From a virus, in IMG/VR virus record IMGVR_UViG_3300042945_001689, positions 44,125 through 108,124 of that record: a stretch of DNA of 64,000 nt. The stretch is one strand, 5' to 3'. The notes beneath the pieces are model-generated. The model saw only the letters and a program-made list of their open reading frames with translations, had not been told where the DNA came from and made no database searches. Shown one piece after another: positions 1 to 16,669 of the stretch (the first letter of the stretch is position 1; each line of letters opens with the position of its first letter). The position numbers and the translations under genes were made by a program.

Positions 1-40
1 CATGGTCTATTATTAGTAAAAATTATTTTTTTAATGTCCA

Positions 41-757
41 TTATTTTTTTCTTTTATCATTTGTTTTTAATCTAATTGTTTTTAATTCATGCTTTCCTAC
101 AGGAATATCTGATTCGTCTGTAGCATTTCTGTAAAAGTGTGTCCACTCACCAACTCTATTTTTTAATTGAGACACCTCTCCATATTTTTTATTTTTAATT
201 TCATCTTCTTTAGAAAAAACATAATCATTAATATCTAATTCATATTGGTTTATGTTTTGTAAAGATATTGGAACAATAGCAGCAATAGGAGTTTTTGCTG
301 GAATTGTTATAACAACATTTGGTTTTGTAACTTTGGCTGCTAGTGGCAATGGATATCTAAAAAAAGAAGTAGAAATAAGTGTTGTGTATAAATGAATTCC
401 ATCAATAAATAGATTTGGAACTGGCATTGTTAACAAAGTTGTATTTTCATCAGTAATAAATTTAGTAAATGTATCAAAACTTAGCGTTGCACTTCTTCTA
501 TTTTCATTGACATATTTGTTACCAGATAGGATAGTTATATGACCATCCTCTTTATCTGTATCAATTCCGTCCCAAATAAAACTAATATCTTCATCAAAAC
601 TAATTCCCCAACCTAATGTATTTGAAATTGATAACGGAAAACAATGATATGCGTGTGCATTTGACACATTGTCCATCCAATCTCTTTTAGCAGAAATTTG
701 AGAGATGTTTACACCAGAATTTGGCATCATGTATGCATTAAAAACTTTATTAGTCAT
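41..757 (-). CDS. DUF6065-like protein, copy 1
   Basis: A 238-residue protein of unknown function. It aligns along its length with the protein at 11982-12701: both have an RDWMD block, then AY(H/R)CFPL, GWG-SF and a WDG, and both finish with an FYR-AT-D segment before a basic tail. I recognise this as the DUF6065 type; no reaction is known for it. The start at 757 is preferred over in-frame ATGs at 769 and 805 because it matches the start of the paralogue and leaves only a few bases of overlap with the oxygenase gene upstream (750-1430). The same order, oxygenase then DUF6065, recurs at 13364-11982, which argues for a joint role. Confidence 0.7.
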   Translation of the reverse strand: MTNKVFNAYMMPNSGVNISQISAKRDWMDNVSNAHAYHCFPLSISNTLGWGISFDEDISFIWDGIDTDKEDGHITILSGNKYVNENRRSATLSFDTFTKFITDENTTLLTMPVPNLFIDGIHLYTTLISTSFFRYPLPLAAKVTKPNVVITIPAKTPIAAIVPISLQNINQYELDINDYVFSKEDEIKNKKYGEVSQLKNRVGEWTHFYRNATDESDIPVGKHELKTIRLKTNDKRKK

Positions 758-1430
758 TTGTTTCTTCATGAAGGTCTGGCCTATGATATTTTGCGCTATA
801 ATCAAGCATTGTTACTAACGAATATTTTGTTCCAGATACCACTGGCATTGCTGTATGAGGATACATATAGTTTGATGGAAAAATATATAAATCACCTGCC
901 TGTGGTTTAACTTTTATTCCTTGTAGTCTAAAATCCAACTCTCCACCTTCGTAATCATCATTTAAATATCCTACTAAAGAAACTACACAGTTATATGTAG
1001 GACCTTGATCATGATGCTCTTGAAAATGTTGTCCTGGACCATATTTTATAAAATTAAATGATTCCCAGTATCTTAGTTCTCCAACACGAAAAAAATGAGA
1101 GTAGTCTTTAACTGCTGGAAGTTGTAAGTCATAACAGTCCTGCCAGACTTCTTGCAGCAAAACTGATTGAACGCTTTTATCATTCAGTAAATTTTCTTTT
1201 CTATATTTAAAATCAACACAGTCTCTATATTCTGGAATTTTTTGGGCATATCCAACTAAAGCCTCTCTCCAAAAATAATTTGGATTTTTGCCTGTTAGAC
1301 TATTTTCTAGTCTACTAATTATTTTCATGTCTTTTTTAAATACATTTCTATAAACTGCTATTCCATCTGCAAGTAATTCTTTACTATCCCAAGTTGGATT
1401 TTCAACAACATTTGGTTCAAAATTAATCAT
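750..1430 (-). CDS. Fe(II)/2-oxoglutarate-dependent oxygenase (prolyl-hydroxylase-like)
   Basis: A 226-residue double-stranded beta-helix oxygenase of the prolyl 4-hydroxylase type. The predicted reaction is hydroxylation of a side chain using Fe(II), O2 and 2-oxoglutarate, with succinate and CO2 as co-products. Visible iron ligands are H139-x-D141 and the distal H192, and K202 follows where the 2-oxoglutarate carboxylate is bound. The core strand YLNDDYEGGEL is nearly identical in all the window's oxygenases. The start overlaps the end of the upstream oxygenase gene by four bases (ATGA), so the two are translationally coupled. The substrate is unknown; the neighbouring proline-rich fibre at 2220-3524 is a candidate. 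Confidence 0.88.
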   Translation of the reverse strand: MINFEPNVVENPTWDSKELLADGIAVYRNVFKKDMKIISRLENSLTGKNPNYFWREALVGYAQKIPEYRDCVDFKYRKENLLNDKSVQSVLLQEVWQDCYDLQLPAVKDYSHFFRVGELRYWESFNFIKYGPGQHFQEHHDQGPTYNCVVSLVGYLNDDYEGGELDFRLQGIKVKPQAGDLYIFPSNYMYPHTAMPVVSGTKYSLVTMLDYSAKYHRPDLHEETND

Positions 1431-2161
1431 TGTTGCCTTTCTGTGTAAGTATACTTATGTCCCAATTCATTAATATCTGTCATAATAACAATACAATATT
1501 TTGTTCCATTAACCATGTCCATTGACGCATGCTCATAAATATAATTAGATGGAAAAATTGCTATATCACCAAACTTTGGTTTATAAACTAAGTTGTCTAG
1601 CCTTGGAAAAAATAATTCTCCGCCTTCATAATCATCATTTAAATAAATTACAACAGAAACTGTTGTATTATATGCTGGACCGTGATCTGCATGAATTCTA
1701 AATTGCTGTCCTACACCTTCATACTTTACAAAATTAAATGCTTCATAATAGACCACATTAATTCCCCAATAACGAGCATAGTCATCAACACATAATTTTA
1801 AAGTATTGTAAATTTCTTCATACATATCAATTAATTCAGCATTTTGCTCATCTCTTGCTCCCAGAGAATAAGGATTATACTTAAAATCAGAGCAGTTTCT
1901 AGCATACTTTATTGGTTGATCTGAGTTTGTAACTTTTGCTTCATTCCACTTATACCTTGTTTGTCCATTTAAATTATTTTCTAATATACTTAAATATTTT
2001 TCACAATTTTCTTTTGAAATTGCATTATTATAGATATTTAAACCTAATCCTGGATTGCTTACTTTAATATTATTAAAAGTTTTGTCTGGCATTCTAAAAG
2101 ATGCAGATTCTGACCTATCTTTTGTAAACCAAGGATTTTGTGATTCATTTACTTCAATCAT
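1427..2161 (-). CDS. Fe(II)/2-oxoglutarate-dependent oxygenase
   Basis: A 244-residue member of the same family as 750-1430, with iron ligands H157-x-D159 and H211 and a Lys at about 221. It has an N-terminal extension of about 30 residues compared with its neighbour. It begins the three-gene minus-strand group oxygenase-oxygenase-DUF6065 and is preceded by an AAGGAG ribosome site in the short gap after the fibre gene at 2220-3524. Both conserved catalytic elements are intact, so it is probably active. The low identity outside the core suggests a different substrate or a different site from its neighbour. Confidence 0.88.
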   Translation of the reverse strand: MIEVNESQNPWFTKDRSESASFRMPDKTFNNIKVSNPGLGLNIYNNAISKENCEKYLSILENNLNGQTRYKWNEAKVTNSDQPIKYARNCSDFKYNPYSLGARDEQNAELIDMYEEIYNTLKLCVDDYARYWGINVVYYEAFNFVKYEGVGQQFRIHADHGPAYNTTVSVVIYLNDDYEGGELFFPRLDNLVYKPKFGDIAIFPSNYIYEHASMDMVNGTKYCIVIMTDINELGHKYTYTERQQ

Positions 2162-2219
2162 TAGCGAGTCTCCTTTATTTAATTATAGCATAAGAATTAT
2201 TTAAAGGAGACTGCGCTTT

Positions 2220-3524
2220 TTATTCAATACTTTGATCTCTTGTGTCATATACTAACATATTTTCTGTAAAGAAGTTGTCGTATGGTTCACAGTTAATCGA
2301 ATATACTGTTTCTTCATAATTTAGAACGTCTAATGAATCAATATTGACAAACCCTAACTCTTCATATGAATATACCATATATGTGTCATCAATTGAATCA
2401 ATTCTTAAGAATTTTGAAACATTATCTTTTTTAGTTAAAATATAATGCGTTTCAGAATATGCATCGCCGTTAAGAAGATATACTTTATCTACTTGCTTTG
2501 ATGATACTGCATAAACTGTAGTTTCTCTTAAATTGGTTTCATTTAGGATTAAGTCTTCTGCTGTCCAATTTAACCAATCAGCGTTATGTGCTGAGGCTTG
2601 TTCTGGAAGTTCCATAGCAATTAAAACATCTCCTACAACTATGTCTTTGGCTTCTTTTCTGCCATTGGTAGTCATGATGCCTGTATTGCTGGCAATGGAA
2701 TACTCTGAGAATCCAAACCCTGGGAAAAATGGTCCGAATGGTGGTGGGAATGGTGGTGGGAATGGTGGTGGGAATGGTGGTGGGAATGGTGGTGGGAATG
2801 GTGGTGGTGCGAAACTTGGGAAGAACGGAAAGAACGGGAAGAATGGGAAAAATGGGAAGAATGGGAAGAATGGTGAAAGTGTAGTAACGCTAGAAGTTGT
2901 TGCTCCTAATGATGCTCCATTAGCATTTGTTGCAGTAACAGTGTAAGTCTGTGAAGTTCCTGCTGTATCAGCAATAGTTGATGATGTTGCTGATGATGCT
3001 AAATCTCCAGAAGAAGTTCCGTCAGAACCAGTAACGTTATGCTTAGATAAAGCCTTTCCACCAGTGGCACCAATTGTCCAACTGATTGTGTTTTGGTTAA
3101 CACCAGCACTGGCGACCGCACCTTGAGGCGCTTGTGGAACTGTTGTTGCAGTTACTGAAGAAGAAGTTGTTCCGCTTGCAGTTCCTGCAGCGTTTGTTCC
3201 TTTTACTGTAAATGTGTATGAAGTATTTGATGCTAATCCCTGAAAAGTATAAGAAGGAGTGGAAGAGCCAGTATTTACTTCGTAAGTTGAGGGGGTTGTT
3301 GTAATGATATAAGCAGTTGCTGCTGGAGATCCCGCTGGCAATGTCCAAGTAAGGCTTACTGCTCCACCTGTGCCTGCTGCAGATGCTGCTGAAGTAGTAT
3401 TAGCAGTAGCAAGATAAGGACGAGATGTTCCTACATCTGTACCACTTAAGGAAGTAACATTATCTGGTTGCAAAAAGTTGTCTTGTGCTGAAGACTTGAT
3501 ACCTCTTTTTTTACTAACTGCCAT
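2220..3524 (-). CDS. Fibre protein: two FN3 domains, Phe/Pro repeats, Hint-like C-terminus
   Basis: A 434-residue structural-type protein. Two fibronectin type III domains occupy about residues 38-128 and 130-215. They are followed by a run of FFP repeats (217-235) and a run of PPF/FPPP repeats (239-262), then GPFFPGFGFS. The last 160 residues resemble a Hint (hedgehog/intein) fold: an N-terminal TNG-x9-DIVVGDVL block, a central THYIL block and a C-terminal NFFTENMLVYD block. The usual Cys1 is replaced (Ser by my alignment, about residue 276) and the usual terminal His-Asn is Tyr-Asp, so normal splicing is unlikely. The protein at 13985-14890 has the same plan. It follows the fibre gene at 3556-5499. 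An AGGAG precedes the ATG. Confidence 0.75.
   Translation of the reverse strand: MAVSKKRGIKSSAQDNFLQPDNVTSLSGTDVGTSRPYLATANTTSAASAAGTGGAVSLTWTLPAGSPAATAYIITTTPSTYEVNTGSSTPSYTFQGLASNTSYTFTVKGTNAAGTASGTTSSSVTATTVPQAPQGAVASAGVNQNTISWTIGATGGKALSKHNVTGSDGTSSGDLASSATSSTIADTAGTSQTYTVTATNANGASLGATTSSVTTLSPFFPFFPFFPFFPFFPFFPSFAPPPFPPPFPPPFPPPFPPPFPPPFGPFFPGFGFSEYSIASNTGIMTTNGRKEAKDIVVGDVLIAMELPEQASAHNADWLNWTAEDLILNETNLRETTVYAVSSKQVDKVYLLNGDAYSETHYILTKKDNVSKFLRIDSIDDTYMVYSYEELGFVNIDSLDVLNYEETVYSINCEPYDNFFTENMLVYDTRDQSIE
2739..2876 (-). repeat. In-gene tandem repeat coding for FFP and PPF units
   Basis: On the plus strand this reads as repeated GGTGGGAAT and GGGAAGAAT units. On the minus strand these encode about six FFP units and then six FPPP units. 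The purity of the DNA repeat suggests recent slippage and variable length between relatives. Confidence 0.85.
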
Positions 3525-3555
3525 TTTTACTCCTCTTTTCTATTATATCAAACTA

Positions 3556-5499
3556 TTATGCTTTTAAATCTCCCATTACAACCCAAAGATTTGCTGCTCT
3601 CTTAAATAATGTTGCTGATGACCATTGTGCACGAAGTTTTAATCCAGGAGTTGCATTTACTGTTGTTGTTCCTGGTGTTACTGCTTCAATTGTCACTTCG
3701 CCAGTATTTGTTCGAAGAATATCAATTGATGTTCCGACTGGATAATTAAGTGTAGCATCTGTTGGGATTAAAACCTTAACTGCAGTTCCACCTGTATGTG
3801 AAACTTCAATTAATGAGTCTCTTTCATTTGCTGCTGAAAGGGTGTATTCTGCTGTCTTCTGAATAATTGATGTCCGTGATGGAACACCTTCTTTTGTTTG
3901 TGTACCGTCGGTAAAAATAAATCCACCAGCAGTTGTACTAATAACTGAAGTTCCGTTTACTTTAAGATCTTTTCCTGAAGCAAGGTTGATATGCTCGGAA
4001 GATGTCCAAGAATCTGTAGAATCTACCCAGTTAAAGGTTTTGTCTGTTGCGCCTTTAAGTGTAATACCTCCGCCATCTGCAGTTGTATCAGTAGGAGTTC
4101 CTGTATCTCCAAGAACAATGTTTTTGTCTTCAATAACAAGGTTAGTTGAGTTAAGGTTTGTTGTAGTTCCATTAATCGTTAAGTTTCCAGAAAGAGTTAA
4201 GTCTGTTCCAGAAACGGCTCCTGTAAATGTTGCTCCAGTAAGAGAAGCCTTAGCGTCTAACTGTGTTTGAATGGCTGAAGTTACCCCATCAACGTAGTTA
4301 AGTTCTGTAGTTGATGTGGTTACACCATCAAGAATGTTAAGTTCTGCTGCTGTAGAAGTAATAGAACTTCCAGCAATCTGTAAAGTTGTGGCGTTTACTT
4401 CGCCTGCAGAGCCATAAATAACTGCTTTGCTATTTGCAATAGTTCCTGCTGATGATCCATCTACTAAGTTAAGTTCTGCTGCTGTAGAAGTAATAGAAGT
4501 GCCAGCAATTTGTAAAGTTGTAGCATTTACTTGGCCTGCTGGACCATAAATTACTGCCTTGCTATCTACAATTGTTCCAGCAATAGATCCATCTATTAAA
4601 TTAACTTCTGATGCTGTTGCAGTGACATCTGTTGCACCTGCTGAAAGAACATGTGTATGACCTGTTCCTGCTTTTCCATCAATCTGTCCTTGAATTCCAG
4701 CAGAAACTCCTTCTAGGTACCCTATTTCTGTTGAAGATAGATCTCCAATTGATGTGGTACTTGGAAGAGTTACTGTTCCAGTAAATGTAGGACCTGCTAG
4801 TGCTGCTTTAGCATCTAACTGAGTTTGAATTGCTGAGGTTACACCATTAAGATAACTAATTTCAGTATTTGATACATCTGCAACAACTGCTTGCTTATTG
4901 TCTAATTGTGTTTGAATTGCTGAAGTAACACCAGCAAGATATCCTAATTCTGTTGATGTTGCACCAGTTGCACTAAGGTTTCCTGTTGTAACAACAGTTC
5001 CGCTTACGTTTGGAAATGTAATAGTTCTATCGGCTGTAGGATCTGTTACTGTTAAAGTGGTTTCATAATCGTTTGCTGTAGTACCTTCAAAAACAATTCC
5101 TGTTGTAGCATTAATTGTTGTGCTGTTAATAGTAGTGGTTGTACCACTTACTGTTAAATCTCCTGAAACGGTAACGTTTCCACTACCATCGGACAAAACA
5201 ACTGTGCCTGTTGCATCTGGAAATGTAATTGTACGGTCTGCTGTAGGATCTGTTACGGCAAGAGTTGTTTCAAATGCGTTGTCTGTAGCACCTTCAAATG
5301 TAATGCTTGAACCAAATGATGGGTTTACTGTAGAGGATTGGTCAATAAAGTAGTCAATATTTGCCCAGTGGTTAGTGCCATCACCGATCTTAAACTTATT
5401 AGTGTCTGATTCCCATCCGATTTCACCAGCATTTAGTATTGGGTTTGCTGATGTCCATTGTGCTGCAGTACCTCTGCGTTGCTGCATTCTTGTTGCCAT
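3556..5499 (-). CDS. Tail fibre with Mtd-like N-terminal domain and internal repeats
   Basis: A 647-residue fibre. Its first 50 residues match the N-terminal domain seen in major tropism determinant and related receptor-binding proteins (QRRGTAAQW, LNAGEIGWESD, KIGDG). The shaft is built of repeats: SSTEIGYL/TSTAAELN-LVDG units, IQTQLDAK heptad-like linkers, and paired blocks around FPDATGTVV. A C-terminal beta domain (about 550-647) is shared with the fibre at 14890-15690, including RAQWSSATL/RTQYSSCTL and the ending GDL-A. It probably binds to the baseplate or another fibre through its N-terminus and displays the distal domain to the host. The next gene downstream is the Hint fibre. Confidence 0.8.
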   Translation of the reverse strand: MATRMQQRRGTAAQWTSANPILNAGEIGWESDTNKFKIGDGTNHWANIDYFIDQSSTVNPSFGSSITFEGATDNAFETTLAVTDPTADRTITFPDATGTVVLSDGSGNVTVSGDLTVSGTTTTINSTTINATTGIVFEGTTANDYETTLTVTDPTADRTITFPNVSGTVVTTGNLSATGATSTELGYLAGVTSAIQTQLDNKQAVVADVSNTEISYLNGVTSAIQTQLDAKAALAGPTFTGTVTLPSTTSIGDLSSTEIGYLEGVSAGIQGQIDGKAGTGHTHVLSAGATDVTATASEVNLIDGSIAGTIVDSKAVIYGPAGQVNATTLQIAGTSITSTAAELNLVDGSSAGTIANSKAVIYGSAGEVNATTLQIAGSSITSTAAELNILDGVTTSTTELNYVDGVTSAIQTQLDAKASLTGATFTGAVSGTDLTLSGNLTINGTTTNLNSTNLVIEDKNIVLGDTGTPTDTTADGGGITLKGATDKTFNWVDSTDSWTSSEHINLASGKDLKVNGTSVISTTAGGFIFTDGTQTKEGVPSRTSIIQKTAEYTLSAANERDSLIEVSHTGGTAVKVLIPTDATLNYPVGTSIDILRTNTGEVTIEAVTPGTTTVNATPGLKLRAQWSSATLFKRAANLWVVMGDLKA

Positions 5500-5547
5500 A
5501 TTATTTTCCTCCTACAGAAAATTTCTTATTTTTATTATAACAGATAA

Positions 5548-6006
5548 TTAATTAAAGTTATCTGTTGCAACTCCTCCATCATAGGTATTTTCCCATGATG
5601 AAGTGCTATAGTCTCCTGCGCTTACTAGAACACCTGGTTCATTATAAGCACCTCCAGAAACAAATGTACTTACAATAAGACCAGATCCATCAATTGCGGT
5701 ATTGTGAATGTGGTCTTGTAATACTTCTGCATCTTCAAGAGTTGCAATTGCTACCCATTGAGATCCATAATAAACATGAACTCTTTCTGTTAATGTGTCA
5801 AACCAAAGATTTCCATTTGATGGAGAATTTGGTGCTGTTCCGCTAACAGTTACTCCTGCACTACCCGCAACACTATCAACATATGCTTTTGTTGCTGCAT
5901 GTGTATTTTGAGTTGGAGTGGCAACTGTAACCGTTGATCCGAAAGTACCGCCATCGGCTACGACTAAGCCATGTTTTACCTTAAAATCTCTGTTTACAGT
6001 TGCCAT
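5548..6006 (-). CDS. Small tail-fibre-associated protein
   Basis: A 152-residue protein starting MATVNRDFKVKHGLVV, nearly the same start as the 608-residue fibre upstream (MATVNKDFRVKSGLVV). That points to a common attachment module. The middle has ATKAYVDS and a NGNLWFDT-x-T segment, both common in phage fibres. No enzymatic motif is seen. It lies in a minus-strand fibre operon with gaps of only 10-50 bases. Confidence 0.6.
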   Translation of the reverse strand: MATVNRDFKVKHGLVVADGGTFGSTVTVATPTQNTHAATKAYVDSVAGSAGVTVSGTAPNSPSNGNLWFDTLTERVHVYYGSQWVAIATLEDAEVLQDHIHNTAIDGSGLIVSTFVSGGAYNEPGVLVSAGDYSTSSWENTYDGGVATDNFN

Positions 6007-6018
6007 TTAATCTCCTTT

Positions 6019-7845
6019 TTATGCCTCTATGTATGTCTTTGAAACCTTAACAGAAGTATCTGCTGCTGCTGCAGTAACTTGAAGAAGAACATTTCCACCG
6101 CTATAAACAGCATTTGTTGTTCCAAGTTCTGTATTGCTTATAACATTAGCATACTCTGTTACATAAACATTATTGTCACCATCTATAGCAACAAGCATTT
6201 CAATTACTTCAATGTTGCCAGACTTTTTCATCTGAATAACATACTTAGCAGCAGAATATGTTGTTGCTGAGAATGTATCAATTGTTGTTGCTGAAGTGCC
6301 AGCAGTTGCTGTTGCAGATCCAACAAGAGCATCTGGTAGAGCAAGGCTAGTACCTGTTGCTGCTCCAAGTTCTGGAGTTACAAGAGTTGGTGTATTAGCA
6401 AATACCAGTGCACCAGTTCCTGTTTCATCAGTTACTGCTGAAGCAAGGTTTGCTGAAGAAGGGGTTCCCAAAAATGTTGCAACACCTGCTGCCAAACCAG
6501 AAACATCATTTGCAATTCTTACTGTAAGTGTATTGTTTGCACCGCTGATTGTCTTGTTTGTAAGAGTTTCGGCTGCATCTTTAAGTGATGTTCCATTAAC
6601 CTTAAATTCTTTTCCTGAAGCAAGGTTTAAGTGTTCAGATGAGGTCCATGCATCAGTTGCATCTACCCATGAGAAAGTCTTGTCTGTAGCACCCTTAAGA
6701 GTAATACCACCACCATCAGCACCTGCATCTGTTGGAGATGTTACTGCACCAAGTGTAAGGTTCTTGTCATCAACTGTGATTTCTGTTGAGTTAATTGTAG
6801 TTGTTGTACCGTTAACTGTTAGGTCCCCTGAAAGAACCAAAGATGTACCAGTTGCTGCACCAATGTTTGGTGTTACGAGTGTTGGTGTATTAGCAAAAAC
6901 AAGTGCTCCAGTACCAGTCTCGTCTGAAATAATTCCAGCGAGTTCTGATGAAGATGTTGCTGCAAGTACGTTTAACTTATCTGTTGTTACAACAAGAGTC
7001 TTTGTGTTTGGAATAGTTGTACCATTGATAGAATCAGCAGTAGCAACACCAAGTGCTGGAGTTGTAAGTGTTGGGCTTGTAAGTGTCTTATTTGTAAGTG
7101 TCTGTGTGTTAGTTGTTCCAACTACCGCACCAGTTGCACCATGTGCTTCTGTAAGGTTGCCATGAGTTGTAAGATCTGAAGAAGTAGCCTTAGCATCCAA
7201 CTGAGTCTGGATTGCTGAAGTTACGCCATCTACGTAGTTAAGTTCTGTAGCGGTTGCAGTAAGTGATGTACCAGCAATTTGTAGAGTTGTAGCATTTACT
7301 TCTCCTGCTGCTCCATAAATAACTGCCTTACCATTTGCAATAGTCCCTGCAGATGATCCATCTACTAAGTTGAGTTCAGAAGCACTTGCAGTCAAATCCG
7401 AAACATTTGCTACTTGAACTGTAACTGTGTTGTTTGTATAAGAAATTGTTTTGTTGCTTAATGTTTGTGTTGCATCATTAAGTGTTACAGTGCCTGTAGC
7501 GTTTGGAAGTGTGATAGTACGATCTGCTGTTGGATCTGCTACTTCAAGAATTGTCTCATAGTCATCTGCTGTTGCACCTTCAAATGAAATTGAAGAACCA
7601 AATACACCAACGGCTGCTGGGGCTGACCACTCAACTCCGTATGTTGCACTTGAATTTGCTGTGAGGACCTGTCCGTTTGTACCAATGGCTAAACGTGCTA
7701 CTGCATCATCTGCACTACCAACAATTAAGTCACCCTTAGCATCTACGGTTCCTGCGGTAAGAACATTCTTACCATTAACGGTTGCTGTTGATCCTTCAAC
7801 AACTAATCCCGATTTTACTCTAAAATCTTTATTTACTGTTGCCAT
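6019..7845 (-). CDS. Tail fibre, repeat-rich
   Basis: A 608-residue fibre. It has the short attachment module MATVNKDFRVKSGLVV, then a DAKGDLIVG-x-LTANSS segment typical of phage fibres, then many repeats of the same families as the fibre at 3556-5499 (LVDGSSAGTIANGKAVIYG, TQTLTNKT, ETGTGALVFANTPTLV). The last 90 residues (IDTF-AKYVIQMKKSG-IEVIEM) are related to the C-terminus of the 148-residue protein next upstream (VDNF-VKYLISIKHTSG). The shared end domain suggests exchange of tips between fibre genes. Confidence 0.75.
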   Translation of the reverse strand: MATVNKDFRVKSGLVVEGSTATVNGKNVLTAGTVDAKGDLIVGSADDAVARLAIGTNGQVLTANSSATYGVEWSAPAAVGVFGSSISFEGATADDYETILEVADPTADRTITLPNATGTVTLNDATQTLSNKTISYTNNTVTVQVANVSDLTASASELNLVDGSSAGTIANGKAVIYGAAGEVNATTLQIAGTSLTATATELNYVDGVTSAIQTQLDAKATSSDLTTHGNLTEAHGATGAVVGTTNTQTLTNKTLTSPTLTTPALGVATADSINGTTIPNTKTLVVTTDKLNVLAATSSSELAGIISDETGTGALVFANTPTLVTPNIGAATGTSLVLSGDLTVNGTTTTINSTEITVDDKNLTLGAVTSPTDAGADGGGITLKGATDKTFSWVDATDAWTSSEHLNLASGKEFKVNGTSLKDAAETLTNKTISGANNTLTVRIANDVSGLAAGVATFLGTPSSANLASAVTDETGTGALVFANTPTLVTPELGAATGTSLALPDALVGSATATAGTSATTIDTFSATTYSAAKYVIQMKKSGNIEVIEMLVAIDGDNNVYVTEYANVISNTELGTTNAVYSGGNVLLQVTAAAADTSVKVSKTYIEA

Positions 7846-7858
7846 TTTTTATCTCCTT

Positions 7859-8305
7859 TTATGCCTTTAATCCTATACGTGCATAACGTACGGTTATAGG
7901 TGTTGTACCGACTACTGGAGTAACCGTTAAGGATACTGTATTTCCAGCGCGGGAGACGCTTATGGTGCCAATATTCCCATCGTTGTCTATAGTTCCATAT
8001 TCACTAACGCTAACATCTGTACCGTCAATTAATATGTTAATCTCTGTGGCGTAATATTTATTAGCGCCTCCAGAAGTATGTTTGATTGAGATTAGGTATT
8101 TAACCATTCTCCATTCTGTTGCGTTAAAATTATCAACTACCGTAGAACTTTCAATTCCGTTAATTGTTGATTCATTATTACCAGTAGTTCCTAAGTCTGT
8201 GGCTTGGGCTGATGTTGAGTCAATTAAATCTTCATAATCTTGCTGAGTAGGACGATCTCCTGTTTGAAACAAGGCCTTGACTGATGCTAATGATATTTTT
8301 GCCAT
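7859..8305 (-). CDS. Fibre/baseplate accessory protein
   Basis: A 148-residue structural protein. The N-terminal 45 residues contain a VKALFQTGDRPTQQDYEDLIDS segment, a common start in phage fibre-associated proteins. The C-terminal 95 residues are homologous to the end of the fibre at 6019-7845. A perfect TATAAT lies exactly six bases before the ATG on the minus strand (8312-8317), so the message is probably leaderless. Confidence 0.6.
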   Translation of the reverse strand: MAKISLASVKALFQTGDRPTQQDYEDLIDSTSAQATDLGTTGNNESTINGIESSTVVDNFNATEWRMVKYLISIKHTSGGANKYYATEINILIDGTDVSVSEYGTIDNDGNIGTISVSRAGNTVSLTVTPVVGTTPITVRYARIGLKA

Positions 8306-8345
8306 ACCTAGATTATAACATAATTATTTTAATAGTTTTATAATT

Positions 8346-8573
8346 TTATAAAATATAGTTGCTTACACCAATCATTTGTAAGGGAATTGGTGGCGCATTA
8401 TTAGCGTTAAAGGCTATAATATCTATATCAGTTATTCTTACTCTAAATGGTAAAAATTCATTTATTGTTATCCCTCTGTCAATCTTTTCTTCAATAGAAA
8501 CTTTAGGAAATGTGTGTTGATCAATTGATTTTAATATTGTTGTTTGTTTATCAAATATTGCAACAGAAGCCAT
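8346..8573 (-). CDS. Small conserved structural-type protein
   Basis: 75 residues, no recognised domain. The start ATG overlaps the stop of the upstream Ig-like gene by one base (TAATG), which implies translational coupling. The central FRVRITDIDIIAFNANN looks beta-rich. It is likely part of the fibre/baseplate set by position only. Confidence 0.5.
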   Translation of the reverse strand: MASVAIFDKQTTILKSIDQHTFPKVSIEEKIDRGITINEFLPFRVRITDIDIIAFNANNAPPIPLQMIGVSNYIL

Positions 8574-8974
8574 TAACTTGTTACGTCTTCTAAAACAACC
8601 ATTTGACCTCTAGCAACTGTCCAAACTCGTGTTGCATCAGATAGTTGAACATCAAAAACATCTCCAGTTTTTAATTGTGCTGACTGTACAGATGTTAATT
8701 TAACTGTAAATTCTCCAGTTTCATCTCCCGCGTCTGGGGCAGGCGTTATTGTAAATACTGTACCAGCAGAATCTTGATCAAAATTATTTTCTATATCTGG
8801 TCTTCTAAATCTTGCAGCAATTGTCCAGTTGGCTATTACAAGTGGATTTTTAGCATCATCTGTAACATATATCCTAAATGCAACGGTATCTCCCTTTACA
8901 ATTGTCCATTTTACTAATGGCGGGGCATCACCAATATCATAAACAGATTGTCCAGCACCTCTATAATTAGCCAT
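8573..8974 (-). CDS. Ig-like phage structural protein (BppU-N-like family, copy 1)
   Basis: 133 residues. It shares with the proteins at 16265-16654 and 17499-17885 an early KGDT-x-FR motif, a DW/NWT strand and a closing V-x-V-x-(D/E)D(V/I)T. This is the pattern of small beta-sandwich proteins at the base of phage fibres or the upper baseplate. No enzymatic residues are seen. It has a TATAAT (8981-8986, minus) six bases from ATG, with a TTTACA at good spacing. Confidence 0.6.
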   Translation of the reverse strand: MANYRGAGQSVYDIGDAPPLVKWTIVKGDTVAFRIYVTDDAKNPLVIANWTIAARFRRPDIENNFDQDSAGTVFTITPAPDAGDETGEFTVKLTSVQSAQLKTGDVFDVQLSDATRVWTVARGQMVVLEDVTS

Positions 8975-8980
8975 ATAAGA

Positions 8981-9009
8981 ATTATAACATAATTACAAGA
9001 ATATGTAAA
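8981..9009 (-). promoter_or_regulatory. Promoter of a leaderless structural operon
   Basis: On the minus strand TTTACA (9004-9009), 17 bases, TATAAT (8981-8986), then six bases and the ATG of the gene at 8573-8974. Confidence 0.65.
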
Positions 9010-9012
9010 AAG

Positions 9013-9042
9013 TTGACAAAAAACAAAACTTCATGTTATACT
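9013..9042 (+). promoter_or_regulatory. Sigma70-type promoter of the lysin gene
   Basis: TTGACA (9013-9018), an 18-base spacer, TATACT (9037-9042). The predicted start of transcription is about 9049, directly before a perfect 8-bp hairpin. Confidence 0.8.
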
Positions 9043-9049
9043 GGTAGGT

Positions 9050-9070
9050 AACACCATAAAAAATGGTGTT
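9050..9070 (+). promoter_or_regulatory. 5'-end stem-loop of the lysin message
   Basis: AACACCAT-AAAAA-ATGGTGTT forms a perfect stem that would sit at the very 5' end of the lysin mRNA, followed by a T-rich stretch. It could stabilise the message or attenuate it. Confidence 0.5.
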
Positions 9071-9091
9071 TTGTTTTCTAAGGAGGAAACT

Positions 9092-9658
9092 ATGATTAAA
9101 TTTATCGAAAGAAACAAAGAGGTCATTAGTATACTCGGCATACTGACTTTAGTAACGACATTGTCAAACGTTGCTAATGCTGAAACACGAATAAGTGACA
9201 AAAATAATTTGAGTATAGAACAGGCTCAGGAGCAGGAAAACGCCTCGAAAGAGGTTTTTTTGGTTTCTAAAGAAGAAAATAATAAAATTAACAAAAAATA
9301 CAAATATGGAACCCCCCTTGAAAAAGACGAACTAATTAAAATATTAAAGCAAGTAGGCTTTAAAGGATATTCACTAAAGGTTGCTTGGGCAACGGTAATG
9401 AAAGAATCTATGGGCACTCCTAACTCTTGGAATCCTAATAGACAGACTGGAGATAATTCTTATGGCCTATTTCAAATCAATATGCTTGGAGGACTGGGCG
9501 AAGAAAGAAGAAGCAAGTTTAATCTAAAGTCTAACGAAGATCTGTTTGATCCAGTTAGAAATGCAGAAATCGCTTATCATATGAGTAATGGTGGTGAAGA
9601 TTGGTCTGCCTGGAAAGGCATTACCTGGAAAACTAAAGAGTGGATGGAAAGATATTAA
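9092..9658 (+). CDS. Secreted lytic transglycosylase/lysozyme-like protein
   Basis: 188 residues from the ATG that follows a perfect AGGAGG; an upstream in-frame ATG at 9071 lacks this. The N-terminus is a signal peptide or membrane anchor (IGILTLVTTL, ending ANA). The C-terminal 100 residues have the SLT/lysozyme-like pattern: a helix with WATVMKES (likely catalytic Glu), then YGLFQIN, and a closing GGEDWSAW. Such proteins cleave the glycan strand of peptidoglycan, either at entry or at lysis. It is the only plus-strand gene in a minus-strand structural region and has its own strong promoter, so its timing is probably set independently. A CHAP lysin is at 53858-54454. Confidence 0.75.
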   Translation: MIKFIERNKEVISILGILTLVTTLSNVANAETRISDKNNLSIEQAQEQENASKEVFLVSKEENNKINKKYKYGTPLEKDELIKILKQVGFKGYSLKVAWATVMKESMGTPNSWNPNRQTGDNSYGLFQINMLGGLGEERRSKFNLKSNEDLFDPVRNAEIAYHMSNGGEDWSAWKGITWKTKEWMERY

Positions 9659-10659
9659 TTTTTAATATCTTGTATTATCTCTAAAAATCCTTCTGCCCAA
9701 TGCATATGTTTATGAACTCCACTATGCCTTGCCTTTTTTGAATAATACTTTTCATCTTCTATGTCTGTTGATGTATCAAAATTTTTTGGATACAAATGTC
9801 TTAAATGTTCGTGTTTATTACATTCGTCTAAATATACATCAAGTCCATCATCACTTTTGTACCATCTATTAGACTTTAAATAAACAAAATTATTTGATAC
9901 ATTTTCTTGTTGTGTTATTAAGTCATACAAAAAACCACTCCACGTTGACCATAAAAATAAAATTTTTGCTTCTTTACAATACTGCTCTAACATTTTAATA
10001 TATTGATATGAGTAAAAAAATGGTAAATCTGGAGAAAAAACATCTTCAGAATAATGTGGTTTTTTAGAATATTTTTCTGATTCTTGATAAATTACGTGAG
10101 TTGAAGACAACATACTCTCTGGATGTACTGGAAAATAAGTATTTTTTGTTATTAATGTTTCAGTATTTACTGGAACCATAAATCTATAAAAATCTGGAAA
10201 CAAACATAAAAGAGTTTTTGGATGACCATATTCTTCAAAATATTTATATATATTATTTATAATTGCAACAACAGAGTCTCCTGGTTGACTTATATTTGAA
10301 TACTTTACATTTAAAGCCTTTGCTACTTGACTGCCCCATATTTCTTTTTCTGGCAATCCCAACCCAAATGTAAAAGAACAGCCACCAAAAACAAGTTCAT
10401 TGTTTTCATTAAAATCTTTTCCTCTAAAACCTAAATTATTTATAATATATGAATTAGACTGGTCCAATAAAAATTCTGTTTCTGTATAATGTCCCGTCCA
10501 TAGCAAACCATTTGGATACAAACCTGGTTTTCTTTTATTTGTAATAATCCAATCATTTAAAAATAAATGTTTAACATTTTCATGATCAACTACATCATTT
10601 CCAATTAAACCTAAGTCACTTATAGTTTCTTTTATAGTTTTAGTATATGTATTTTTCAT
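9655..10659 (-). CDS. SGNH/GDSL-type hydrolase or acyltransferase
   Basis: 334 residues. The nucleophile block is FGGCSFTFGLGL (a GxSFTxG variant of GDSL), and the C-terminal block SGVHKHMHWAEGF fits the catalytic Asp/His region. The protein at 49728-50606 shares both blocks (AGCSNTFGVGM and HFGYAFHYAWSEF) and the lead-in NNYGFR-D-F. SGNH enzymes remove or transfer acyl groups on sugars. This one closes an operon of oxygenases and a DUF6065 protein beside fibres, so fibre or glycan decoration is a reasonable guess. Its 3' end overlaps the convergent lysin gene by four bases. Confidence 0.65.
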   Translation of the reverse strand: MKNTYTKTIKETISDLGLIGNDVVDHENVKHLFLNDWIITNKRKPGLYPNGLLWTGHYTETEFLLDQSNSYIINNLGFRGKDFNENNELVFGGCSFTFGLGLPEKEIWGSQVAKALNVKYSNISQPGDSVVAIINNIYKYFEEYGHPKTLLCLFPDFYRFMVPVNTETLITKNTYFPVHPESMLSSTHVIYQESEKYSKKPHYSEDVFSPDLPFFYSYQYIKMLEQYCKEAKILFLWSTWSGFLYDLITQQENVSNNFVYLKSNRWYKSDDGLDVYLDECNKHEHLRHLYPKNFDTSTDIEDEKYYSKKARHSGVHKHMHWAEGFLEIIQDIKN

Positions 10660-10709
10660 ATTTTTTATCCTTTTTTTTAAATATTTTTTTAAATTTATAC
10701 AAATAATAT

Positions 10710-11300
10710 TTAATTTTTATTAACATATTTATTTCTAATTTCATTTTCAAATATTCTGTATTTAGTTGGAATCCAAAAAGATGGTGTGGTATATCTTGTG
10801 CCTTTTGTTATCTCCCGCACACCGTGTATATACATTGTGTTTGATGGGAAAAATACCAATGTACCAGCACTAGGTTTAAAGTCTAAGTTATGATCTGGGA
10901 AGTATATCTCTCCGCCTTCGTAGTCATCGTTCAAATATATAACAGCCCCATAGTCAACTATAAATGCTTCATTTGGATGTCCTTCTGGATCTTCTCCATC
11001 TGCATGTAGTGGTTGAAACTCTCCTGCGTCCCATCTTCTTATTCCAGCAGAATTTGTTTCAAGAGGTCTTCCAAAATAAAGTTCTATCTCTTGCTGTACT
11101 CTATCAATTGCTTTTTTTAGTATGGCATGGGCCTCTGGCTTTTCAGAAGCAAGATTTCTTGTTACTTTGTCTGGTATTCCAGCCATTGAATTAGAACCCC
11201 AAGAAATTGTATCGTCTATTGATGATAATACAATGTCTAAATCTTTCTTTGAAACAAAATTTTCTTTTATAACAATATTTTTTGTAGATCCTATTTTCAT
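10710..11300 (-). CDS. Fe(II)/2-oxoglutarate-dependent oxygenase
   Basis: 196 residues, complete catalytic set: H99-x-D101, distal H159, R169 for 2-oxoglutarate. Between the HxD and the YLNDDYEGGEI strand it carries an insertion (EDPEGHPNEAFIVDYG) that is also present in the oxygenase at 13404-13988, so these two form a subgroup. AAGGAG precedes the ATG directly after the stop of the 52-residue gene upstream. Confidence 0.88.
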   Translation of the reverse strand: MKIGSTKNIVIKENFVSKKDLDIVLSSIDDTISWGSNSMAGIPDKVTRNLASEKPEAHAILKKAIDRVQQEIELYFGRPLETNSAGIRRWDAGEFQPLHADGEDPEGHPNEAFIVDYGAVIYLNDDYEGGEIYFPDHNLDFKPSAGTLVFFPSNTMYIHGVREITKGTRYTTPSFWIPTKYRIFENEIRNKYVNKN

Positions 11301-11309
11301 TTTTTCTCC

Positions 11310-11468
11310 TTAATTAGGTAACTCTGATTGCTCTGCTATTTCTTTTACTTTGTCAAAGTTTGATGCATCAACCATTGAAGATAAAACATAACATATCCAT
11401 TGATAAGATGACTTTTCGCAATACCCCTTTGACTGCATAATTTTAGCAATATCTTCTATAATTTCCAT
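11310..11468 (-). CDS. 52-residue protein between oxygenase genes
   Basis: Translates to 52 residues beginning MEIIEDIAKIMQSKGY and ending SELPN. The ATG overlaps the stop of the upstream oxygenase (TAATG), and the next oxygenase follows after ten bases with a good ribosome site, so it is very likely translated. It looks helical, with SYQWICYVLSSM in the middle. Function unknown; it could be a small partner of the oxygenases. Confidence 0.6.
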   Translation of the reverse strand: MEIIEDIAKIMQSKGYCEKSSYQWICYVLSSMVDASNFDKVKEIAEQSELPN

Positions 11469-11989
11469 TACTTATACTCCAAAAATATGTTAATTGCATA
11501 TCTTGTTCCAGAATGAACCTGATGCGCTATGTGCATATATGGGTAGTTTGATGGAAATAATACCATAGAATTTTTTACTGGCTTAACTTTAATGTCAAAG
11601 TTGCAAAATTCTATCTCTCCGCCTTCGTAGTCATCGTTTAAATATATAACGCAACTAGTAACTCTGTTAGAAACATGCTTTGAGCCATCATCATAGTGCA
11701 TTACATACTTTTCTCCAGGCTCGTATTTTAATGCCTCTATTGTAAGATATGTTAGTTCTGGAAGAAAATATAAATCACGATATGCACTTAAAGAACTATG
11801 CAGCGCCTCATCTATAATTTTAAAAATTTCTTTTTGCAACTCTTTGTCTTGAAAGTATATGACTGAATTAGATCTATCTTCTGTTTTTACATTTAGTGGT
11901 TTTGTCCACTCATACTTATTAATTTCTTTAATTAATAAATCTGAATTATTCAAAACATTATAATAAAACTCTATTCCGTTTTTATTCAT
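11468..11989 (-). CDS. Fe(II)/2-oxoglutarate-dependent oxygenase, short form
   Basis: 173 residues, the shortest of the set. Iron ligands are H98-x-D100 and H153, with R163 as the 2-oxoglutarate anchor. The core strand is YLNDDYEGGEI. The gene overlaps the end of the DUF6065 gene upstream by eight bases. Confidence 0.87.
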   Translation of the reverse strand: MNKNGIEFYYNVLNNSDLLIKEINKYEWTKPLNVKTEDRSNSVIYFQDKELQKEIFKIIDEALHSSLSAYRDLYFLPELTYLTIEALKYEPGEKYVMHYDDGSKHVSNRVTSCVIYLNDDYEGGEIEFCNFDIKVKPVKNSMVLFPSNYPYMHIAHQVHSGTRYAINIFLEYK

Positions 11990-12701
11990 TTTTTTTCCTT
12001 ATGTCTTTGGTATGCAACTTTATTTTTTTTACTTCGTGTGATCCAACAGAATTGCCAAATTGATCAGTAGCGCTTCGATAAAAATCAGAAAACTTTGGAA
12101 TTTTATTATTTTCTAATATTACATTTCCATAGTCTGTTACTTTTTTATGGTATTCATTAATATTATGTGGATTATTATTTAAAGTAATTGTAGAATTTTG
12201 TAAATTTGTTAAAGATATTGGCAAAACAGAAATAATTGGAGAGTTTGCTTTAAACGTAATAACAGTGTTTGGCCTTGTAATTTTCCAAGATACTGGTATA
12301 GGTTTTTGCCAAAAACTAGAACTAATTAAGTTTGTTAACGGAACTGCGCCATCAATGTCTAAATTTGGTGGACCAAAAAACAATAAACTAGTTTCTGGAT
12401 TTGTTTCAAAAAACCAACCTATATTAAAAATTAGTGTTGCAGTTCCTCTGTTAGTGTCAACAAATTCTTTACCTTTTAAAACCGTTATGTGATTTCCTTC
12501 AGAAGAGTCGTTTCCATCCCAAACAACAGAAATATCTTTGGGGAATGAAAATCCCCATCCCATTTGATTTGTTAACGATAAAGGAAAACACCTGTATGCA
12601 TGTTGATCAAATGTTTTATCCATCCAGTCTCTTTTTAAAGAAAGTTGTTCTATTCTTGCACCTAAACCTGGATTTACTTCATATGCATTGATTTCATACA
12701 T
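11982..12701 (-). CDS. DUF6065-like protein, copy 2
   Basis: 239 residues, paralogue of 41-757 (shared RDWMD, FPLS-TN-GWGFSF, WDG, and the FYR-AT-D-x-VG-HE-K end block). It starts one base after the stop of the oxygenase at 12702-13364 and overlaps the next oxygenase. Unknown function. The constant pairing with oxygenases suggests that it binds the same substrate or delivers it. Confidence 0.7.
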   Translation of the reverse strand: MYEINAYEVNPGLGARIEQLSLKRDWMDKTFDQHAYRCFPLSLTNQMGWGFSFPKDISVVWDGNDSSEGNHITVLKGKEFVDTNRGTATLIFNIGWFFETNPETSLLFFGPPNLDIDGAVPLTNLISSSFWQKPIPVSWKITRPNTVITFKANSPIISVLPISLTNLQNSTITLNNNPHNINEYHKKVTDYGNVILENNKIPKFSDFYRSATDQFGNSVGSHEVKKIKLHTKDIRKKNE

Positions 12702-13364
12702 TTATTGTTTTTGCCTTAGTGGAGAGTTTGCTCCGTGTACCCTATCATTATAGTCAAACATTGTTACTGCAGAATATTTTATTCCTTCTTTTACAGGCAA
12801 AGCAGCATGAGAATATAAAAAGTTTGATGGGAACAAAACAATATCTCCCTCTTCTGGAGTATAAGTATAGTTTATGTATGGGAAAAACAATTCTCCTCCA
12901 GTATAGTTGTCATTTAAATACATAACTGTAGAAACAGTACATACATAACTAAAACCATGATCTGAATGAACCTGAAAGTGTTGATCTTTTCCATATCTAA
13001 CAAAATTAACTGCTTCTTGATACTCTAAGTTTAAATTAAAAAGTGAAGAATAATGTTTTACACATTCCTGTAGTCGTTCATCTATGTCAAAGTATATTTT
13101 TCTTAAATCTGACATAGTTGCTCTTGGGTTATTTACAAAATCATTTTTTCTTACTTTAAAGTCTACGCAATCTCTATAATCTTTTCTTGTTTCATAATCA
13201 CCAACTTGTGCTTCGCTCCATTTGAAAAAATTATCGCCATGTTTTTCAATAACATCTTCAAGTCGCTGAACAAGATTTAAGTCTTTATTAAGCGCATTTT
13301 TATAAACGAATACAGCAGGCGCAGGATTTTCTATAGTGGTTGTTTCTATAAAGTTAGATAACAT
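12702..13364 (-). CDS. Fe(II)/2-oxoglutarate-dependent oxygenase
   Basis: 220 residues. H133-x-D135, H186 and K196 are in place. It is closest to the oxygenase at 750-1430 (both have CVDFK-RK, EA-NF-(R/K)YG--QHFQ and a Lys rather than Arg as the 2-oxoglutarate anchor), and both are followed at once by a DUF6065 gene. The pair is therefore a duplicated two-gene cassette. AAGGAG precedes the ATG. Confidence 0.88.
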   Translation of the reverse strand: MLSNFIETTTIENPAPAVFVYKNALNKDLNLVQRLEDVIEKHGDNFFKWSEAQVGDYETRKDYRDCVDFKVRKNDFVNNPRATMSDLRKIYFDIDERLQECVKHYSSLFNLNLEYQEAVNFVRYGKDQHFQVHSDHGFSYVCTVSTVMYLNDNYTGGELFFPYINYTYTPEEGDIVLFPSNFLYSHAALPVKEGIKYSAVTMFDYNDRVHGANSPLRQKQ

Positions 13365-13403
13365 TTAATCTCCTTTTTGGTCAATATATAGTATACTACA
13401 TAT

Positions 13404-13988
13404 ATGGACAATATGTATAAGGTACAACCTGGCTATTTTGGGGACTCTGTTGATAATATCATTGTTTTAGAAAATTTTATAAGTCCAGATGACTTAGATA
13501 AATTTTACTTTTACTCTAAATCAATAGAAAATTTTTTATCCATACCTGATGACAACTGGGACAACAGGGTTCATAGTTCAGAGTTATTTAAAAATAGTAA
13601 TAAGGCATTATTTCTTAAACTTTTAGAATATCAAAAAAAATTAAAAATAGAAATAGAAAAAAGATTTAACTTTGTTTTACAAGAAAATTCACCATCAATA
13701 GTTCTTTGGAGACCTGGAGACGATCAGCCTCCTCATGCAGACAAACAGGAGCAAGATGGTAATCCAAATTCTTATCCTGAAAATGATGTGGCATCCCTAA
13801 TGTATATAAACGACAATTATGATGGTGGAGAAATATACTTTACTAACCAGGATATAACCATAAAGCCCAAGGCTGGTTCTGCAATATTTTTTCCTGGAGA
13901 TATACATTATACTCATGGGGTAACAAAAGTATTAAATAACAACAGATATACATCGCCAGCATTTTGGCGTGTAAAAAACTTTAATTAA
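13404..13988 (+). CDS. Fe(II)/2-oxoglutarate-dependent oxygenase (plus strand)
   Basis: 194 residues: H111-x-D113, H171, R181. It shares the insertion after HxD with the oxygenase at 10710-11300. It is transcribed against its neighbours from a TATACT (13392-13397) placed six bases before the ATG, so the message is probably leaderless and lacks a ribosome site. Its last bases overlap the end of the convergent Hint/proline-rich fibre gene by four. Confidence 0.87.
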   Translation: MDNMYKVQPGYFGDSVDNIIVLENFISPDDLDKFYFYSKSIENFLSIPDDNWDNRVHSSELFKNSNKALFLKLLEYQKKLKIEIEKRFNFVLQENSPSIVLWRPGDDQPPHADKQEQDGNPNSYPENDVASLMYINDNYDGGEIYFTNQDITIKPKAGSAIFFPGDIHYTHGVTKVLNNNRYTSPAFWRVKNFN

Positions 13989-14890
13989 ATATTATCCCTA
14001 ACATCAAAAACCAACATATTTTCTGTAAAGAAATTATCATATGGTTCGCAATTGATTGAATAAACCGTATCTTCATATTCTATAATATCGAACACTTCTA
14101 TTGGAACAAACTGTAGATCAGCAAAAGAGTATACAAAATATGAACTATCAATTTCTGATGTTTGTATAAATTTAACAACATTATCTTTTTTAGTTAAAAT
14201 ATAATGCGTTCCCGAATATGCATCTCCGTTAATTATATAAAGTGTACCGATAGGTCTTGAGGTAATAGAAACAACCTCTGTTTCTCTTAAATTGGTTTCA
14301 TCTAATAATAAATCTTCTTTACTCCAAGTTGTCCAATCAGAAACATTGTTGGTATCTAAATCCATAGCAACCAAAACGTCTCCTACTACAATATCTTTAG
14401 CGTCTTTTCTTCCATTAATAGTTATAATTCCAGTATTGCTTGCAATGGAATATTCTGAATAGACTCCAAACCCTGGGAAAAATGGTGGTATTGGGAACGG
14501 TGGTGGGAACGGTGGTGGGGCAACGGCGAACGGTGGTGGGAACGGTGGTGGGAACGGTGGTGGGAACGGTGGTGGTGCTGGGGCTACTGGAGTAACAGAA
14601 TTACTTGCTGCAGATTCTAACGATGTAGCAACACCATTTCCTAGTTTTACTTTAAATGTATAGGCTGTTCCATTTGACAAACCACTAACAGTTATTGGAG
14701 AAGTTGAAGATGTTCCTGTTATATCTGATGGAGTTGAAGTTGCAGTGTAAGTTGTTCCAATTGGTTTGCCTAAATAGGCTGGTGCTGTAAATGAAACTGT
14801 TGCTGTTTCATTACCTTCTGTTGCAGTTCCAATTGTTGGAGTTCCTGGTTGTATTCCTCCACTACCTGAAGATATTGGTGGTAATGGCAT
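13985..14890 (-). CDS. Fibre protein: FN3 domain, FPPP repeats, Hint-like C-terminus
   Basis: 301 residues from the ATG that overlaps the upstream stop (TAATG); an ATG ten codons earlier would run into the fibre gene. One FN3 domain spans about 17-102, then APPPFPPPF-type repeats (106-140), then PFFPGFG and a Hint-like domain (147-298) highly similar to the end of the 2220-3524 protein (EYSIASNTGI, AKDIVVGDVL, GTHYILTKKDNV, YSINCEPYDNFFTENMLV). Again Cys1 is replaced (Ser by my alignment) and the C-terminal His-Asn is replaced (Phe-Asp). It likely works at the tail tip as a spike or fibre end. Confidence 0.75.
   Translation of the reverse strand: MPLPPISSGSGGIQPGTPTIGTATEGNETATVSFTAPAYLGKPIGTTYTATSTPSDITGTSSTSPITVSGLSNGTAYTFKVKLGNGVATSLESAASNSVTPVAPAPPPFPPPFPPPFPPPFAVAPPPFPPPFPIPPFFPGFGVYSEYSIASNTGIITINGRKDAKDIVVGDVLVAMDLDTNNVSDWTTWSKEDLLLDETNLRETEVVSITSRPIGTLYIINGDAYSGTHYILTKKDNVVKFIQTSEIDSSYFVYSFADLQFVPIEVFDIIEYEDTVYSINCEPYDNFFTENMLVFDVRDNI
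14462..14575 (-). repeat. In-gene tandem repeat coding for FPPP units
   Basis: GGTGGGAAC-GGT units on the plus strand encode FPPP on the minus strand, in two blocks interrupted by an AVA segment. It matches the repeat in the gene at 2220-3524. Confidence 0.85.
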
Positions 14891-15690: not shown

Positions 15691-15716
15691 AGTCTAAATA
15701 TTATAGCATAGTTATT

Positions 15717-16265: not shown

Positions 16266-16654
16266 TAAACTGCCCCAGTAACATCATCTTGAACTGTAAT
16301 TGTGCCAGTTAATAAAGTATATCTAAGTGCTGCGCCATTATAAATTTCAAGATCATAATAATAAGTTGAGCCACCCTCTAGATCTCTTCCTCCATCAGGA
16401 GTAATCGTACATGTTATTGTATTGTCTGAAGTGTTGATAGATGCACCTAAATCTGAAGATCCGTTAGATGTTAGGACTAATTCTCTGGTACTGCCTCTAG
16501 CGTCTGCTATTGTAAAAATTGCATCTCTTGCTGGACTTGCTGATTTATAAGCAGAAAGAGCAAATGCTGCTCCTGTAGAATCTTTTGGGGATACAACAAA
16601 CCTAAATGTATCGCCACGATAATAGTCAAAATTATAAGTGCCTGGAAATGCCAT
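16265..16654 (-). CDS. Ig-like phage structural protein (BppU-N-like family, copy 2)
   Basis: 129 residues with YRGDTFRFVVSP near the start and GTITVQDDVT at the end, as in its paralogues at 8573-8974 and 17499-17885. TATAAT (16661-16666, minus) lies exactly six bases before the ATG: leaderless message likely. Confidence 0.6.
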   Translation of the reverse strand: MAFPGTYNFDYYRGDTFRFVVSPKDSTGAAFALSAYKSASPARDAIFTIADARGSTRELVLTSNGSSDLGASINTSDNTITCTITPDGGRDLEGGSTYYYDLEIYNGAALRYTLLTGTITVQDDVTGAV

Positions 16655-16669
16655 GTATTTATTATACCA

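Follow-up and report, generated by a model that had tools for sequence, protein, structure and literature searches.

Which substrate a virus might serve with several prolyl 4-hydroxylase-like (P4H-like) 2-oxoglutarate (2OG)-Fe(II) oxygenases encoded beside proline-rich fibres is the question raised by a 64,000-nucleotide stretch of viral DNA (hereafter the window), which comprises bases 44125-108124 of the 108-kb IMG/VR parent contig IMGVR_UViG_3300042945_001689. Six of these oxygenases lie in two clusters, each adjoining one fibre built from fn3, Phe/Pro-repeat and Hint segments, and a seventh lies apart. A preliminary description of this DNA had missed that a gene for a DUF6065 (PF19541) protein lies inside each cluster. 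As the oxygenase-DUF6065 cluster is, across hundreds of further viral sequences, present with Pro repeats and absent with Gly-Ala-Phe (GAF) repeats, the fibres of these viruses are probably hydroxylated by the viruses' own enzymes, and we assign a probability of roughly 0.64 to the six clustered oxygenases and DUF6065 forming a module, encoded by the phage, for prolyl hydroxylation of its fibres. This assignment builds on features observed directly: which genes are present, their active sites, and the way in which the cluster covaries with repeat type. The genes concerned are as follows.

41..805, minus strand: DUF6065 protein, probably translated from an ATG at 769 (PF19541, E 1.1e-25)
750..1430, minus strand: 2OG-Fe(II) oxygenase, P4H-like, with a 4-bp overlap with the 1427..2161 gene (PF13640, E 2.9e-15; motif scan)
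1427..2161, minus strand: 2OG-Fe(II) oxygenase, P4H-like, first gene after fibre 1 (PF13640, E 3.4e-12; HAD...H...K motif)
2220..3524, minus strand: fibre 1, with fn3 domain(s), (FFP)n then (PPPF)n, and a Hint/intein-like C-terminal domain (Pfam, repeat reading, Foldseek)
10710..11300, minus strand: 2OG-Fe(II) oxygenase (PF13640, E 1.6e-9)
11468..11989, minus strand: 2OG-Fe(II) oxygenase, with an 8-bp overlap with the DUF6065 gene (PF13640, E 7.6e-17)
11982..12701, minus strand: DUF6065 protein, predicted dUTPase-like beta-clip fold (PF19541, E 4.9e-36)
12702..13364, minus strand: 2OG-Fe(II) oxygenase, directly upstream of the DUF6065 gene (PF13640, E 6.3e-13)
13404..13988, plus strand: 2OG-Fe(II) oxygenase, convergent with fibre 2, with a 4-bp overlap (PF13640, E 5.7e-10; motif scan)
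13985..14890, minus strand: fibre 2, with fn3, (PPPF)n and a Hint/intein-like domain (Pfam, repeat reading, AlphaFold2, Foldseek)

All seven oxygenase open reading frames (ORFs) named in the preliminary description were intact, exceeded the PF13640 cut-off of 27 bits (E 7.6e-17 to 5.9e-7) and kept HxD...H together with a 2OG-binding Arg or Lys (motif scan HxD...H...[RK]Y), and no PF13640 match beyond these seven was found elsewhere in the parent contig. Upon comparing a profile of 18 cluster oxygenases with solved structures, Bacillus P4H (1.3e-15) and human P3H1 (prolyl 3-hydroxylase 1; 8.5e-14) emerged as the best matches, with lysyl hydroxylases and PHD2 ranking later and a Tet-like enzyme reaching only 0.009; the best PDB entries (3itq, 5hv0, 5iax and 8k0e) are thus prolyl hydroxylases and not AlkB, TET or PHYH. 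The oxygenases within a cluster are paralogous to one another (about 19-39% identity in the window; up to nine per cluster in this system), and the 12702..13364 oxygenase has same-position orthologues in relatives with 71-81% identity. Since clustering of paralogues alone could be tandem duplication, it is the comparative survey described below that makes the linkage more than chance.

The repeats of both fibres and their direct adjacency to oxygenase genes, as first described, are real. Repeat units mostly read [F/Y/P]-F-P-P, with Phe preceding PP in 938/1096 cases. FFPP units are written in 4.9 codon versions per 10 units on average, and this variation of codons between units whose residues stay the same indicates that the protein sequence is maintained. 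An NGGG-repeat ORF at 2533-2946 (plus strand) is no gene but the antisense reading of the repeat in fibre 1.

To relate repeat class to oxygenase content, loci were collected in two ways. In one survey, 34 loci were retrieved via the Hint domain and 24 via DUF6065, and annotated with profiles of the window proteins. In the other, viral contigs of IMG/VR were scanned for DNA encoding (PPPF)3 and (FFPP)3, with the Phe-rich, Pro-free (GAF)4 as control; this DNA-pattern scan is independent of the oxygenases and was chosen to avoid circularity. Counts cover distinct ORFs followed by at least 4 kb of DNA, an oxygenase being scored within 6 kb downstream; the Pro-class counts rest on the (PPPF)3 matches and on those (FFPP)3 matches that were listed, and include some unrelated short ORFs. 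This comparison, a co-occurrence survey of the kind suggested in the preliminary description, found oxygenases with 58/69 Pro-Phe-repeat ORFs among the matches listed and with 0/32 (GAF)n ORFs (Fisher p=2.7e-17, relatedness ignored). For Hint-bearing fibres alone, oxygenases stood beside 16/18 Pro fibres, again among the matches listed, and 0/27 GAF fibres. GAF fibres as a whole are mostly of the same fn3-Hint type as the Pro-repeat fibres. Across Hint fibres, FFPP, PPPF and FFP repeats go with the cluster, and GAF, SPF/APF and HYAGF repeats are mostly found without it. The first oxygenase lay a median of 146 bp from the fibre stop. Frequent fibres without an oxygenase, which the preliminary description had named as evidence against modification, were not the pattern seen: 11/69 of the listed ORFs had no nearby oxygenase, and four of 10 such contigs checked carry an oxygenase match, weak in one case, in another part of the contig.

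The same contrast appears in the layout of a shared locus. GAF loci follow the order fibre-PEWY-ribonucleotide reductase (RNR) in 32/38 cases, with RNR 0.8-1.8 kb past the fibre; at Pro-repeat loci the RNR is 3.0-9.7 kb from the fibre (eight loci with RNR in range), and the DNA in between holds the oxygenases and DUF6065. The window contig has the Pro-repeat state, fibre-[oxygenases-DUF6065]-PEWY...-RNR, the first cluster being followed, outside the window, by a PEWY gene, a class II RNR and then a 1199-aa protein. PEWY thus accompanies both fibre types; oxygenases and DUF6065 accompany Pro repeats. Most members of the PEWY family (L313:9435-10166, equivalent to contig C1:43434-44165; e.g. L012:4278-5012) lack a Pfam match; the family weakly resembles DUF6065, and 49 virus records, most of them haloarchaeal, contain distant relatives of it.

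To what extent might common descent account for the association? On a tree of Hint domains, repeat class switches about four times. Of four independent contrasts, three agreed with the association, none ran counter to it and one was a tie (p=0.125), a concordant outcome from too small a sample. Two loci nested among Pro-repeat fibres (L014 and L020) lack both the PP repeat and the cluster. Furthermore, when Pro-class ORFs were grouped by non-repeat sequence, several unrelated scaffolds were found to carry the repeat near oxygenases. These relatedness tests support a link to the repeat over a link to one lineage, though they are not proof by themselves.

Among the genes that accompany the oxygenases, DUF6065 is the most constant. 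The window proteins score 90.9 and 124.8 bits (PF19541 cut-off 26.6), and their genes are tightly packed with oxygenase genes, abutting at 12701/12702 and overlapping at 11982-11989 and, from the likely ATG, at 750-769. An oxygenase is present at each of the 24 loci for which DUF6065 was the sole query, 78/78 distinct DUF6065 proteins (many from loci fetched via the repeat scan) lie within 1 kb of an oxygenase, and a natural DUF6065-2OG oxygenase fusion protein occurs at L206:4769-6016. An AlphaFold2 model from 22 sequences (mean predicted local distance difference test, pLDDT, 80.5) shows moderate similarity to dUTPases by Foldseek (E 1.8e-4; template-modelling score by target up to 0.76); at the sequence level no solved dUTPase was matched, and the stretch resembling motif III (conserved S-T/S-S-F, correspondence judged by eye) has no catalytic Asp. 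DUF6065 is therefore predicted to adopt a dUTPase-like fold without the catalytic Asp. Segment 24-43, predicted with low confidence, holds many invariant residues (R24, W26, D28, H34, Y36 and C38), a combination that would fit ordering on a partner.

Outside phages, a scan of bacterial genomes for DUF6065 returned two loci only (L066 and the weak L067), and the L066 contig itself carries an FFPP repeat and oxygenases. In Sinorhizobium medicae, a DUF6065 gene starts 10 bp past the gene for an autotransporter that has a long polyproline linker, and in S. meliloti, too, DUF6065 comes after autotransporter reading frames that include a stretch coding for polyproline; no oxygenase was found near these Sinorhizobium loci. 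As a lead from this context, DUF6065 may handle polyproline more generally. The autotransporter/DUF6065 loci are:

L304:5448-8729
L305:7073-8732

What, then, would the module do? For its substrate, chemistry, benefit and the role of DUF6065 we infer the following. Both the Pro and the GAF class are rich in Phe and only the former is rich in Pro, so Pro is the likely target; combined with the prolyl-hydroxylase-like profile, this repeat-class contrast makes proline hydroxylation of the repeats the best inference from the sequences. During infection, the oxygenases would convert prolines to 4- and/or 3-hydroxyproline within the aromatic-Phe-Pro-Pro repeats that the neighbouring fn3 fibre carries, with DUF6065 acting as an obligatory non-catalytic partner, for example by presenting or clamping the polyproline repeat. 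Hydroxylation would make the polyproline stalk stiffer and more soluble, or provide points of attachment.

Several results weigh against such a module. Of the 10 Pro-repeat contigs checked because no oxygenase was nearby, six have none elsewhere either, several of these contigs being short; oxygenase number does not increase with Pro count (rho -0.36); and 2OG oxygenases are also common in phages where no such cluster is present. Kinship inflates the raw association, and the Hint tree gives four independent contrasts only. Finally, virions of PBCV-1, whose P4H is discussed below, were searched for hydroxyproline and none was detected (PMC7019647).

The same data bear on other explanations, among which an unlikely one holds that the oxygenase-DUF6065 cluster is cargo of the tail locus, carried in one recombination block with the Pro-repeat fibre and acting on host surface glycans or lipids or on another tail protein, e.g. 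the collagen-like fibre. Tail-fibre loci are recombination hot spots, FkbM methyltransferases, sulfotransferases and glycosyltransferases are also nearby in some relatives, and the cluster comes after a collagen-like gene at two loci (L058 and L059). Cargo of this kind would nevertheless not be expected to be absent at all 32 GAF fibres with enough DNA despite a shared fibre type and a usually syntenic slot, to accompany Pro repeats on several unrelated scaffolds, or to be missing together with the PP repeat at L014 and L020 within the Pro-repeat clade. Modification of Phe, Tyr or other repeat residues instead of Pro is improbable: half of the repeat is Phe, and Tyr, His or Trp is tolerated at one Phe position, but the Phe-rich GAF repeats occur without the cluster and the oxygenase profile is closest to prolyl hydroxylases.

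We regard as very improbable a function in DNA or nucleotide metabolism (repair or base modification). It would draw on the resemblance of the DUF6065 model to dUTPases, on the RNR downstream of the cluster and on the discussion of cyanophage 2OG oxygenases as DNA repair enzymes (PMC9146016); however, RNR is also present in GAF phages without the cluster, the dUTPase motif III-like stretch lacks its Asp, and the profile is P4H-like with Tet-like enzymes marginal. The least probable explanation, to which we give almost no weight, is that clustering is mere tandem gene duplication with no function shared with the fibre; although the oxygenases within one cluster are indeed paralogues, duplication leaves the covariation with repeat type, the constant presence of DUF6065 and the fusion protein unexplained.

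The proposal that the phage modifies its own fibres was, in the preliminary description, broader than the hydroxylation module favoured here: its tie between oxygenases and Pro/Phe-repeat fibres stood, and glycosylation, membership of the seventh oxygenase and the collagen-like fibre as substrate found no support. The two genes in question are:

16670..17416, minus strand: collagen-like tail fibre, a weak candidate second substrate whose membership in the module is unsupported (PF01391, E 5.6e-9; PHROG tail fibre)
37724..38386, plus strand: seventh 2OG-Fe(II) oxygenase, in a separate island and not assigned to the module (PF13640, E 5.9e-7)

The collagen-like ORF was confirmed by PF01391, and was dropped as main substrate because its Pro lies mostly at X of Gly-X-Y (sequence reading) and the collagen gene is directly beside the cluster only at L058 and L059. 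The seventh oxygenase was left out because of its separate island, which lies by glycan genes and four tRNA genes (Met, Asn, Glu and Arg; 37392-37693) situated just before it. With regard to glycosylation, we examined PF11397, a glycosyltransferase family linked to hydroxyproline GlcNAc transfer on Skp1. These transferases occur near some Pro-repeat fibres (L105, L167, L178, L193, L198 and L209), but exceed the cut-off in 8/50 Pro-repeat and 11/43 GAF contigs, and none is in the window's own contig; being at least as common in GAF contigs, PF11397 was dropped as evidence. Sulfotransferase-like genes directly follow several Pro-repeat fibres (L148, L152, L158, L196, L226, L064 and others) and no GAF fibres, only some of them reaching Pfam significance; their products could sulfate the modified fibre.

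The C-terminal domain of the fibres was modelled by AlphaFold2 (mean pLDDT 80) and matched by Foldseek to a Hint/bacterial intein-like fold (6y75, BIL2; E 4.5e-8), its PF14890 match being below cut-off. Both window domains (2220-2711 and 13985-14450) have Ser at the nucleophile position and Tyr/Phe-Asp in place of the His-Asn end; relatives at L055:6658-8055 and L064:6010-7398 have Cys and a His-Asn end. Autocleavage of phage fibres by such Hint domains is a possibility.

Other genes of the window include a 334-aa ORF beside the second cluster (9655-10659), with no Pfam or PHROG match and a GGCSFTFGLGL motif that looks SGNH-hydrolase-like by eye, a phosphate-binding-like PBP protein (34018-35061), a glycosyltransferase and FkbM methyltransferase (40230-41935) and a Nol-like carbamoyltransferase (54467-55918). 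The PHROG labels "DNA endonuclease" and "ferrochelatase" on the cluster proteins look like carried-over annotation, and matches in a defence library were solely to a generic 2OG domain model. Megablast of window bases 1-16000 against a 50,697-record collection of isolate phages gave no match, fibre 1 and both DUF6065 proteins had no match there, and an Rfam scan of window bases 1-20000 returned no RNA.

If the hydroxylation module is borne out, phages would join the users of hydroxyproline-rich fibres and offer new enzymes for hydroxylating designed polyproline materials. The analysis already yields a concrete, gene-linked substrate prediction for phage 2OG oxygenases with GAF fibres as natural negative control, a testable case of prolyl hydroxylation on a phage structural protein and, in the fibre-oxygenase link, a first functional context for DUF6065; a search of the open-access literature turned up no paper that treats DUF6065 or the prolyl hydroxylation of phage fibres. 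More tentatively, at somewhat under even odds, a widespread class of phage fibres may exist that combines a polyproline-Phe stalk, a dedicated multi-enzyme prolyl-hydroxylation machine that matures it (several P4H paralogues, with DUF6065 as a dUTPase-fold partner handling polyproline) and possible Hint cleavage as the last step, as a counterpart of hydroxyproline-rich animal and plant fibres.

How does such a module compare with known systems? 2OG oxygenases are common in aquatic phages, their substrates being cryptic or guessed to be DNA (PMC9301287, PMC9146016), and viral use of P4H has been described as cryptic (PMC9301287). Cyanophage and marine phage 2OG-Fe(II) oxygenases (phrog_61) belong to the same broad sequence family and likewise occur in multiple copies per genome, nine in cyanophage S-SZBM1 (PMC9146016), but they lie dispersed, with a role considered to be in DNA repair or cryptic, and covariation with fibre repeats is not described there. 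The P4H of PBCV-1 is likewise a virus-encoded P4H-fold enzyme that hydroxylates Pro-containing peptides (Eriksson 1999, as cited in PMC7019647); it differs in being a single gene of a eukaryotic virus whose substrate within the virus is unknown, with neither an adjacent substrate gene nor DUF6065 reported in the literature searched. PhyA of the Skp1 pathway is a cytoplasmic P4H-type enzyme whose Pro hydroxylation prepares for later glycosylation (PMC7864055); it acts on a single site in a folded protein, and PF11397 is not enriched with the Pro-repeat fibres surveyed here. DUF6065 shares its predicted fold with the dUTPase superfamily, differing in the missing Asp of the motif III-like stretch and in the lack of a sequence match. 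Bacillus P4H (PDB 3itq/5hv0) and collagen P4H/P3H1 are the best profile matches and share HxD...H and a Lys or Arg for 2OG; the collagen enzymes act on Pro-rich fibrous Gly-X-Y repeats, whereas the window module would act on FPP repeats in a phage tail locus. Although a linked hydroxyproline transferase (PF11397) is not supported, a Pro-rich repeat is here, as in collagen/extensin-like fibre systems, genetically tied to P4H.

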